Source: a virus. From it: a stretch of DNA of 35,658 nucleotides. The stretch is from positions 1 through 35,658 of the IMG/VR virus record IMGVR_UViG_3300010371_000077; one strand, given 5' to 3'. The position numbers were made by a program, and so were the translations under genes. Shown in pieces: positions 4,729-22,362 of the stretch; position 1 is the stretch's first letter, and every line of letters starts with the position of its first letter. The notes under the pieces were generated by a model. The model did not search any database. It was given only the letters and a program-made list of their open reading frames with translations, and was not told where the DNA came from.

Positions 4729-4968
4729 ATGACGATGACAGAGACGATGACAGCCCGCGCGCGGGTCCGCGCGGAGATCGCTGAGCAGGTCGCGTCACAG
4801 GACTGCTACGACGCGAGCGCGACGGACAAGCTCACCAACGCACTGTGCACAATTTTCGAGATCGTACGCGCGGGTCACGACAACACCGGCGGCACAGATC
4901 ATCTGCTCGTAATCAACGAGCTCACCCGCGGCGCACTCGCCGCATATCGAGACGAGGCAACGGTCTAG
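4729..4968 (+). CDS. Hypothetical small helical protein
   Basis: 79 residues from ATG 4729, with GGAG eight bases upstream. It starts with a Thr/Met-rich stretch (MTMTETMTARARVRAEIAEQ). The remainder looks all-helical and acidic (DCYDASATDKLTNALCTIFE, LLVINELTRGALAAYRDEA). The stop overlaps the next start by one base (TAGTG). No family recognised. It is co-transcribed with the AcrVA2-like gene. Confidence 0.7.
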   Translation: MTMTETMTARARVRAEIAEQVASQDCYDASATDKLTNALCTIFEIVRAGHDNTGGTDHLLVINELTRGALAAYRDEATV

Positions 4969-5399
4969 TGGCACAGTCAAACAAGCGCAGTATCTACGTA
5001 ACCGACCGGCTCCGGGATACTCTGGGGCCGGTCGGCGAGGACTCCGGCAGCGTGGTCACGCTCTCGGGCAGGATCACGACTATCGCCGACCGCTACGCCG
5101 AGATCGTCAAATCCGCGCGCATCCTCACGCAGTTTACAGACGCGGAGTGGATGCTGCTCCGCGACGCGCTCAACGGCACACTGCACGAGCCTGCAGCAAC
5201 AATCCGCGAGCTGTGGCAGGGAGTAGAGGACGCGATCACGCTCGACGGGCTCGCAGATAAATGGAGCGTGGACGGCGCGGATCTCATAGCGAGATTGCGC
5301 GCGTTGCGGTTTGACGAGGAGTGCGCGTTGGTCGAGACTGTTGAGCAGTGGTGGATCGCCAACGGAGCGGCACGGATAACTACCGACGCGGTCGAGTAG
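4968..5399 (+). CDS. Hypothetical protein next to the AcrVA2-like gene
   Basis: 143 residues from GTG 4968, which shares a base with the previous stop. The sequence SNKRSIYVTDRLRDTLGPVG then SGSVVTLSGRITTIADRYAE resembles the N-terminus of plasmid and phage proteins with a ribbon-helix-helix-like start (IYVTDRL...). A helical C-terminus contains ALVETVEQWWIANG. The RHH idea is weak but would make this a possible regulator. It lies five bases before the AcrVA2-like gene. Confidence 0.65.
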   Translation: MAQSNKRSIYVTDRLRDTLGPVGEDSGSVVTLSGRITTIADRYAEIVKSARILTQFTDAEWMLLRDALNGTLHEPAATIRELWQGVEDAITLDGLADKWSVDGADLIARLRALRFDEECALVETVEQWWIANGAARITTDAVE

Positions 5400-5403
5400 C
5401 GGC

Positions 5404-6584
5404 GTGACGAGTGACACAGCACCGCGACCGTTTATGTTGTTACGTGGCGCCGAGCAGGCGTGGGGTCGTCAGGTGTGGCGCCAGATTGACCGCGCACGGG
5501 CACGATGGATCGATGCCGACGCCAGAGGTCACCGCGTGCCGTGGTCGTCGTGGTGCTACGTGCCGCGCGAATTGGTGACACACACGTTGCTCGGTGACGA
5601 GACCGGACCGGACTCCTCGCCACGACCGATCACATTGAGCCAACTCGCTACAACAACGGCGCTCGCGGCGTGGCGTATGGGCAAACCGCTCTACCGCTAC
5701 GATCCGACATTGTACGACGCGTTGAGGCAAACACCGTTGACGGACGTGGTGCTGCCGGCAGAGGTATTCACGCGCCTGCCGCACTGGGGCGTGTACATCG
5801 AGACGCCGGATCTCACGATACGGCTACCCTCAATGGGCGACGTGCGCACGGGCTCCGTCAATGTGGTCGGTATGTTCGCGGCGCTGGACGACGCGCCTCA
5901 GCGGAGTACGATGTTCGGGCGCACAATAGCGCGCCGTCCGCCGCGCCTCATAATCGTCCTGGACGTGGAGGAGCAGGACGGAGATCGCGGCTCCGTGCGC
6001 GCACCCGTCCCAATCCAACTGACGCTCGACCGTGACGTTTGCGACGGTCTGACGGACGGATGGGCTGCCGCGATCGGCGAGGTTTACGCGCCGTATCTAC
6101 GTCAACATCCGGAGGAGTCCGAGCGGGCAATGCGCGAGGCAAGACGGGTCGCGCACTCGCTCACAGACGAGATAGCGCCGCTCCTGACACTGATACTCTA
6201 TCTGTGCAGCGAGCAGCCTGATTTGATGGGCGTGATGCCGCCGCCGGATGGCGTCACGGCGGGCGGGCCATCGGCCAAAATGATCGCAGCGCACAACATC
6301 ACCGAGTGGATGGTCGGATCGCGCATCGGTGCAGCGTTGCGAGCTGGTGCCCCCCAGGATGGGAGGAGCGTACTGATCGCGTTGGGAATTACCCTCTCGT
6401 GCGGCCGCATATGCGTCGCGCGCACTGGCACACGTTTTGGACTGGGCCGCGCAATGAGCCGGAGAATCGAGTGCCGCGTCTCAAGTGGTTGCCGCCGATC
6501 CCTGTCGCGGTTACCTGGGACGACGTGCCGAGACTGCCAGCTGATACGCACACAGTCAAACTGTGGGAACCGCCAGACAATTAA
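5404..6584 (+). CDS. AcrVA2-like anti-CRISPR protein, frame changed at a C6 run
   Basis: The 5' part (GTG 5404) encodes the N-terminal and middle regions of an AcrVA2-like protein, including LPHWGVYIETPD and TLILYLCSEQPDL. The conserved C-terminus (YPLVRPHMRRAHWHTFW then PRLKWLPPIPVAV) is in the next frame, ending at TAA 6582-6584. The frames join across six Cs at 6350-6355. A -1 step on CCC there would give about 393 residues, against about 322 for AcrVA2 of Moraxella bovoculi. Unshifted, the first frame continues to 6603 with an unrelated tail. AcrVA2 has been reported to lower Cas12a by acting on it co-translationally. The target of this divergent homologue is unknown. The frame change could be programmed slippage, a phase-variable or inactivating indel, or a sequence error. 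The match is from recalled motifs, not a search. Confidence 0.75.
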
Positions 6585-6587
6585 TCC

Positions 6588-6618
6588 CGAGGGGCGTCAT
6601 TAACACCGGCGTCCCTCG
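6588..6618. terminator. Hairpin between convergent operons
   Basis: CGAGGGGCG (6588-6596) pairs with CGTCCCTCG (6610-6618) over nine positions with one G-T wobble and a 13-base loop. It lies directly after the AcrVA2-like gene and before the end of the leftward operon. It lacks a clear T tract, so it may be a weak or bidirectional terminator. A further dyad, ATAACG-GATA-CGTTAT at 6648-6663, abuts the leftward stop. Confidence 0.45.
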
Positions 6619-21697: not shown

Positions 21698-22356
21698 TCA
21701 CTGAGTGCGAAGGATGTACGGCACGTCCGGCGGGCGCGATCCTTTGGCGGGCGCCTGCGTCCAGATCAGTGTGTTCCACCGATGCGACTCCGCGGCTTTC
21801 GCGCGGAGCCAGTCGAGATACGCGAGCAATCCTTCGCGGATTGGCCACGTCAGGACGTGCTCGATGCGCTCGGGGTCGAAACCCGCGAGCTCGCGGACGA
21901 CGACGTTCCAATCTCCACAGTCGATGTCGGCCCGGTCTCGCCACTTGGGGCCGTTGTACTTTGGCCCGTCGAAAAGCTCGGGGAAGGCGGCGACGATCTC
22001 GCCGCTCTTAGAAAAAAACTCAGCAACTCCGTGGCGACGAGGTCGGAGAGTGCGACAAACTCGTCGGGATTGGTGAGGTTACCGAAATATTCAGCGTTGG
22101 CGGCCGCACGCGCTGGCGACCATTTCACGCCGCGCTCGACGAGCAAGCCCGCGAGCAGCTTGGGCACGCAACCGGTGCCGAACACGCGCGCGATGAATGC
22201 CGCGAGATCGTCGCCCGGCTTGTCCAGTCCCGCCGAATACACGATGTCCATCACGTACGCGTGCTGCGCAAACGTCAACCACTCGGGGGGCGCAAACTGC
22301 CTCCCCCCGAGCGTGATAACGCCGCGCGCTTCTGATACTTCCGCTTCCGCGACCAT
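21698..22356 (-). CDS. Tail assembly chaperone, G-T-type -1 frameshift fusion
   Basis: From ATG 22356 the zero frame gives a G-like protein (GVITLGGRQFAPPEWLTFAQ, then GTGCVPKLLAGLLVERGVKW, NLTNPDEFVALSDLVATELL). A -1 step at T7 (22018-22012) enters a coding frame that runs to TGA 21700-21698: EIVAAFPELFDGPKYNGPKW, LAGFDPERIEHVLTW, LLAYLDWLRAKAAESHRWN, PPDVPYILRTQ. The fusion is about 219 residues. Without the shift the frame runs to 21850 with a low-complexity Ser/Pro end (168 residues). Lambda G/GT chaperones use the same trick; both proteins bind the tape measure during tail assembly. Confidence 0.85.
21987..22018 (-). promoter_or_regulatory. Programmed -1 ribosomal frameshift site
   Basis: The slippery heptamer T-TTT-TTT lies at 22018-22012 in the correct X-XXY-YYZ phase. 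Six bases later (CTAAGA) a perfect 7-bp stem begins, GCGGCGA (22005-21999) with TCGCCGC (21993-21987) around GATCG. Spacing and structure are close to ideal. The downstream frame is clearly protein coding, so frameshifting is well supported. Confidence 0.85.
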
Positions 22357-22362
22357 GCCGCG

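Follow-up and report, generated by a model that had tools for sequence, protein, structure and literature searches.

A tailed phage, known from an IMG/VR record of 35,658 bases that we took whole as the window of this analysis, carries an AcrVA2-like gene whose parts lie in two reading frames. A preliminary description of this DNA read the gene as a divergent relative of AcrVA2, the Cas12a inhibitor of Moraxella, and proposed that it is expressed by slippage, phase-variable or recently inactivated. The locus poses two questions: whether the split is a way of expressing the gene, and what an intact product would act on. We consider it likely that positions 4968–6584 form a two-gene anti-CRISPR-like cassette, the second gene of which belongs to the AcrVA2/FinQ family and was broken by a slip or an error, not by a programmed frameshift (Table 1).

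The split gene and its phage setting

The terminase, portal, protease, major head, tape-measure and tail genes of the window are encoded on the minus strand, and the AcrVA2-like gene lies in a plus-strand region on the left side of the window. Positions 2524–2967, on the plus strand, give weak matches to phage transcriptional repressors and possibly encode a regulator of this left region. The minus strand also holds a tail assembly chaperone region (21701–22362), in which an open reading frame at 22362–21853 contains TTTTTTTC at 22018–22011 and is followed by a −1-frame continuation to 21701, just ahead of the tape-measure gene. This layout is the usual one for a programmed −1 frameshift and, judged from the sequence, the phage appears to use −1 frameshifting there.

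Table 1. Features of the two-gene region in the window
Feature	Positions	Strand	Remarks	Basis
AcrIE10-like gene	4968–5399	+	Putative start near 4968; longest open reading frame starts at 4845	Profile matches
AcrVA2/FinQ-family N-terminal and middle parts	5404–6354	+	Frame 0; residues 1–317	phrog_6160 (E = 7e-21); family HMM
Six-C run (CCCCCC)	6350–6355	+	Site of the −1 family frame change	Sequence; switch of family match
C-terminal part	6356–6584	+	−1 frame; HxRRxHWH core at 6408–6431	phrog_6160 (E = 2.5e-13); 7ci1; L001; invariant residues
Out-of-frame tail of the frame-0 open reading frame	6358–6603	+	About 81 residues; made if the frame is unchanged	

That the two parts of the gene meet at six Cs, as had been noticed from the letters, was confirmed by the open reading frames, by matches to the phrog_6160 profile and by a scan of all frames with a family model. 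The gene starts with a GTG four bases past the stop codon of the gene upstream, and its frame-0 open reading frame (5404–6603) encodes 399 amino acids. LPHWGVYIETPD (5776–5811) and LYLCSEQPDL (6196–6225) are both read in frame 0; RPHMRRAHWHTFW (6402–6440) and LKWLPPIPVAV (6480–6512) are both read in the −1 frame. This frame stays open between 6222 and a stop at 6584 and carries the conserved C-terminal part with its RPHMRRAHWH stretch. The N-terminal part covers positions 38–269 and the C-terminal part positions 284–319 of the 322 in the phrog_6160 profile; because both parts match in colinear order, the split is not a chance juxtaposition. In the family-model scan the last frame-0 match ends at 6354, beyond which frame 0 gives no family match, and the first −1-frame match begins at 6366. 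The frame therefore changes at the C run, which is the longest homopolymer within the gene, or just after it.

By profile homology, and by the modelled fold of its nearest relative, the window gene is a member of the AcrVA2 family, which bears out the relationship proposed in the preliminary description. A profile of the window N-terminal part and seven relatives, with no Moraxella sequences included, matched AcrVA2 in the PDB with E = 2.6e-36 over positions 20–318 of 323; a 59-sequence family profile matched it with E = 1.5e-52, and the C-terminal fragment alone matched it with E = 8e-4 (7ci1). The C-terminal motif RPHxRRxHWHxxW is common to both proteins. Foldseek comparison supports the relationship for the intact gene product of the nearest relative (L001, about 42% identity), which was used in place of the joined window product: its AlphaFold2 model (pLDDT 81.5, pTM 0.83) has AcrVA2 as the sole significant PDB match (7ci2, E = 1.2e-14; next best, 0.3). 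Pfam, NCBIfam and PADLOC offered no usable family. PDB matches of the C-terminal fragment to WW-domain, Nedd4-type proteins rest on a PPGWEER segment beside the C run and are absent with family profiles, and we regard them as chance. Identity between the window N-terminal part and the Moraxella/Shewanella branch of AcrVA2 is just 16–18%, and the function may therefore not be shared.

The core that is lost from the frame-0 product is the most conserved segment of the family. In L001 numbering, its invariant or nearly invariant residues are H334, R336, R337, H339, W340, H341, G346 and W360; across 77 non-redundant relatives, H334, R336, H339 and W360 are invariant and H341 is present in 97%. The break falls ahead of this core in a variable, poorly conserved linker. 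The window keeps all the invariant residues in the −1 frame, and the frame-0 product, which contains none of the invariant or nearly invariant ones, ends in unrelated residues. Compared with L001, the C-terminal part shows 72% identity across 60 codons, has no stop and carries 8, 11 and 35 mismatches at codon positions 1, 2 and 3, respectively. Such a pattern is that of a protein kept in the −1 frame, and at the level of codons this part still looks selected.

Origin of the frame break

The frame break is limited to this record: 85 relatives are complete at both gene ends (77 when non-redundant), and all of them, including L001, are encoded in a single frame. One continuous reading frame thus runs through every complete relative but not through the window gene, and we take the split as the sign of a broken copy or a consensus error, not of a separate family. 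The same comparison tells against slippage as a mode of expression, one of the options in the preliminary description. Because no relative is split and no stimulatory RNA structure was found after the C run, where folding is no better than that of shuffled sequence (z +0.55 and +1.37), a conserved programmed frameshift is unlikely. Such a frameshift at C CCC CCA would yield two products, with and without the core. After a −1 slip, the zero-frame CCC codon can again pair with CCC, the C-terminal part appears to be under selection in the −1 frame and the same phage seems to shift frame in its tail chaperone gene. However, the slip site also lies outside the usual A/T-rich bacterial motifs, and we judge this reading highly improbable. 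Separate translation of the C-terminal part from a GTG at 6306 was considered and set aside, as inspection by eye revealed no convincing ribosome site.

Since the C-terminal part shows no decay, the break is most likely either a recent slip, leaving an inactive and perhaps phase-variable allele, or a consensus error, an alternative that the preliminary description had also named, and it is probably ordinary. We give not quite an even chance to a real break, in which a recent slip in the C run switched the gene off, possibly reversibly through phase variation. The break sits at a homopolymer, and loss at the same linker is seen in bacterial copies of the family, one with an in-frame stop (L071) and three without the C-terminal core (L077, L101 and L105), so that such loss does occur in nature. 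Switching between six and seven Cs is known in bvgS of Bordetella. Six Cs are nevertheless short for a contingency locus, a second allele was not seen and none of the relatives is split at this site. An error in the consensus at the C run, with the virus gene really intact, is plausible but somewhat short of an even prospect: it would fit the position of the break in the longest homopolymer, the undecayed C-terminal part with its full set of invariant residues and the intactness of every complete relative. The rest of the record, by contrast, carries no indel-prone sign. About 21.7 kb of other genes contain 14 runs of at least five bases within intact genes, which speaks mildly against indel-prone sequence, and each structural gene with a comparator in a related locus (L122) matches it in one frame.

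Near-identical DNA was not found in the phage records searched, a set from which such records may be missing, and a degenerate DNA pattern of the C-terminal motif matched solely the L001 contig. An AcrVA2-like gene was present in 0 of 27 records of terminase-related phages, and close phage relatives therefore offered no counterpart to the C run. Unless it is shown to be a switch, the frame break is of little importance.

The AcrIE10-like neighbour and the CRISPR type

The gene that precedes the AcrVA2-like gene, with four bases between them, appears to be AcrIE10-like, the relation being remote (E about 1e-7 to 1e-9). A profile of this gene from four phages matched AcrIE10 in the PDB (9m71, 9m7t, 9uer and 8ji9 chain D; E about 2e-7) with no other notable match, a separate 11-member profile matched it with E = 1.4e-9, and hhalign gave a probability of 95.8%; the alignment spans nearly the whole of AcrIE10 (101 residues). 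An AlphaFold2 model from eight sequences was poor (pLDDT 74, pTM 0.66) and had no Foldseek match. An assignment by eye as a ribbon–helix–helix regulator was rejected, because Pfam was empty and AcrIE10 fits better.

The pairing recurs. An AcrIE10-like gene lies upstream of the AcrVA2-like gene in the window and in L001, L024 and L033, and downstream of it in L027, L044 and the L032/L035/L074 group, for which the AcrIE10-like match is weak (E about 1e-3). In a tree, the window groups with L001 and L024 (0.96), and L033 groups with L027 (0.96) despite their opposite gene orders; the linkage therefore either arose several times or survived rearrangement. A search with the AcrIE10-like gene alone returned eight viral loci, three of which have an adjoining AcrVA2-like gene, and the gene stands without such a neighbour in L161–L163 and L166–L170. 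In PLSDB, 2,413 plasmid records contain AcrIE10 itself, of which 2,309 come from Klebsiella.

The label of an anti-CRISPR is upheld indirectly, through the AcrIE10-like neighbour, and that of a Cas12a inhibitor is not. A genome scan yielded 46 family-carrying genomes, and Cas12a was detected in none of them; this test concerns family carriers at large and not the host of the window phage. The same Cas12a model found the protein in 9 of 149 Moraxellaceae; the family occurs in six of these 149 genomes and overlaps with Cas12a in one, plus one remnant. The target of the window gene may not be Cas12a. We examined CRISPR co-occurrence in 399 evenly drawn Pseudomonadota genomes, with the centre genome excluded from the counts. 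Type I-E Cas7 was present in 6 of 17 carriers and in 28 of 381 others (odds ratio 6.9, one-sided Fisher p = 0.0016, phylogeny ignored), and in 4 of the 13 stronger carriers taken alone (p = 0.015, phylogeny ignored); two of the Cas7 overlaps (G267 and G598) are remnants. Type I-F Csy3 showed no excess in the same sample (1/17 carriers versus 26/381 others). This distribution agrees with the AcrIE10-like neighbour and suggests that many members of the family may act against type I-E systems.

FinQ, proposed working and known systems

FinQ of IncI plasmids, the F-plasmid fertility inhibitor, is by profile homology a member of the same family as AcrVA2 (E = 1.1e-47, with a profile made without FinQ). 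Among the papers searched, none mentions FinQ alongside AcrVA2 or anti-CRISPR. FinQ has been described as terminating transcription at many sites in the F tra operon (PMC8744291). AcrVA2 is reported to read the nascent N-terminal LSKT peptide of Cas12a and to trigger translation-dependent decay of Cas12a mRNA (PMC13131331), and is the reported first prokaryotic factor to destroy an mRNA through reading of the nascent protein. On these accounts both proteins reduce the mRNA of one selected operon, and we infer that they share a mechanism.

The family is broad: degenerate scans retrieved 48 viral and 50 bacterial loci, in addition to 21 phage and 26 plasmid records. In one finQ locus (L002, 3725–4819; NZ_CP123589.1), the annotated FinQ start seems late, as both the open frame and the match to the family extend at least 60 residues further upstream. 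Azohydromonas australica (G030) has an unusual accumulation of six family matches, at least three of them near full length (three loci were fetched), and a Blastocatellia bacterium has two AcrVA2-family genes separated by a few kilobases (L102 and L103; JAJTWZ010000024.1). On the Thioflavicoccus plasmid pTHIMO01 (L004/L159), a family member closes a BREX defence cluster, immediately following brxL and one small gene.

AcrIE10 binds Cas7e and blocks Cascade assembly (PMC13131331), and the first gene of the cassette would by analogy bind Cas7 and stop the assembly of Cascade. An intact second gene product, by analogy with AcrVA2, would recognise a particular nascent protein during translation, holding the emerging peptide with its N-terminal and middle domains, and would trigger decay of the corresponding mRNA; the C-terminal His/Arg core may carry out or recruit the attack on the mRNA. 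Under ordinary decoding, this record would give a second protein without the core, which is predicted to be inactive because the core is left out, unless the run is misread or variable.

A rival reading keeps the second gene as an AcrVA2-family mRNA silencer but gives it a non-CRISPR target, for example the conjugation genes of a rival element, as with FinQ. The presence in the family of FinQ, which lowers F tra transcripts (PMC8744291), the many plasmids with family members and the lack of Cas12a in the carrier genomes point that way, whereas the repeated adjoining of AcrIE10-like genes and the co-occurrence with type I-E Cas7 point to CRISPR; we regard a non-CRISPR target as somewhat unlikely. 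Phages and plasmids of hosts without Cas12a commonly carry AcrVA2 homologues, for which the AcrIE10-like neighbour, the co-occurrence with type I-E and the inclusion of FinQ in the family supply concrete candidate targets: type I-E cas genes and F tra genes. If these targets hold, mobile elements would have in mRNA silencing a general means of countering defence systems and rivals. More broadly, and as a tentative proposal that we think quite unlikely as it stands, the AcrVA2/FinQ family may consist of widespread mobile-element silencers of chosen mRNAs during translation, with the AcrIE10-paired branch silencing type I-E cas mRNA and FinQ likewise acting on F tra mRNA. If so, one cassette would block Cascade both at its making and at its assembly, and FinQ, which has been regarded as a transcription terminator since the 1980s, would act on F tra mRNA as AcrVA2 does on its target. 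It is these family links, rather than the break, that are worth following.

Among known systems, AcrVA2 of Moraxella (PDB 7CI1/7CI2) resembles the window gene in full-length profile homology, in fold, as modelled for L001, and in the RPHxRRxHWHxxW motif. The window gene differs from it in an N-terminal part that is about 17–18% identical, in the frame break and in its neighbours, and nothing here points to a Cas12a host. To phrog_6160, which both window fragments match in order, PHROGs assigns no function. ORF43 of Shewanella phage vB_SbaS_Y11, a putative AcrVA2, is a phage-borne family member like the window gene; it has been reported as AcrVA2-like, and a type I-E system was noted in a Shewanella genome (PMC10846135). 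Unlike the window gene, ORF43 is intact, is nearer to Moraxella AcrVA2 and has no AcrIE10-like neighbour among the genes shown. For AcrIE10 of Klebsiella plasmids (PDB 8JI9, 9M71), the likeness to the upstream product extends over nearly all of the protein, but the homology is remote and, in the Klebsiella plasmid checked, AcrIE10 adjoins other genes. FinQ of IncI plasmids shares with the window gene its family and C-terminal core and is reported to lower the mRNA of its target operon (PMC8744291); it differs in being plasmid-borne and in having the F transfer genes as its target, and its mechanism has been described as transcription termination, whereas that of AcrVA2 is co-translational decay.
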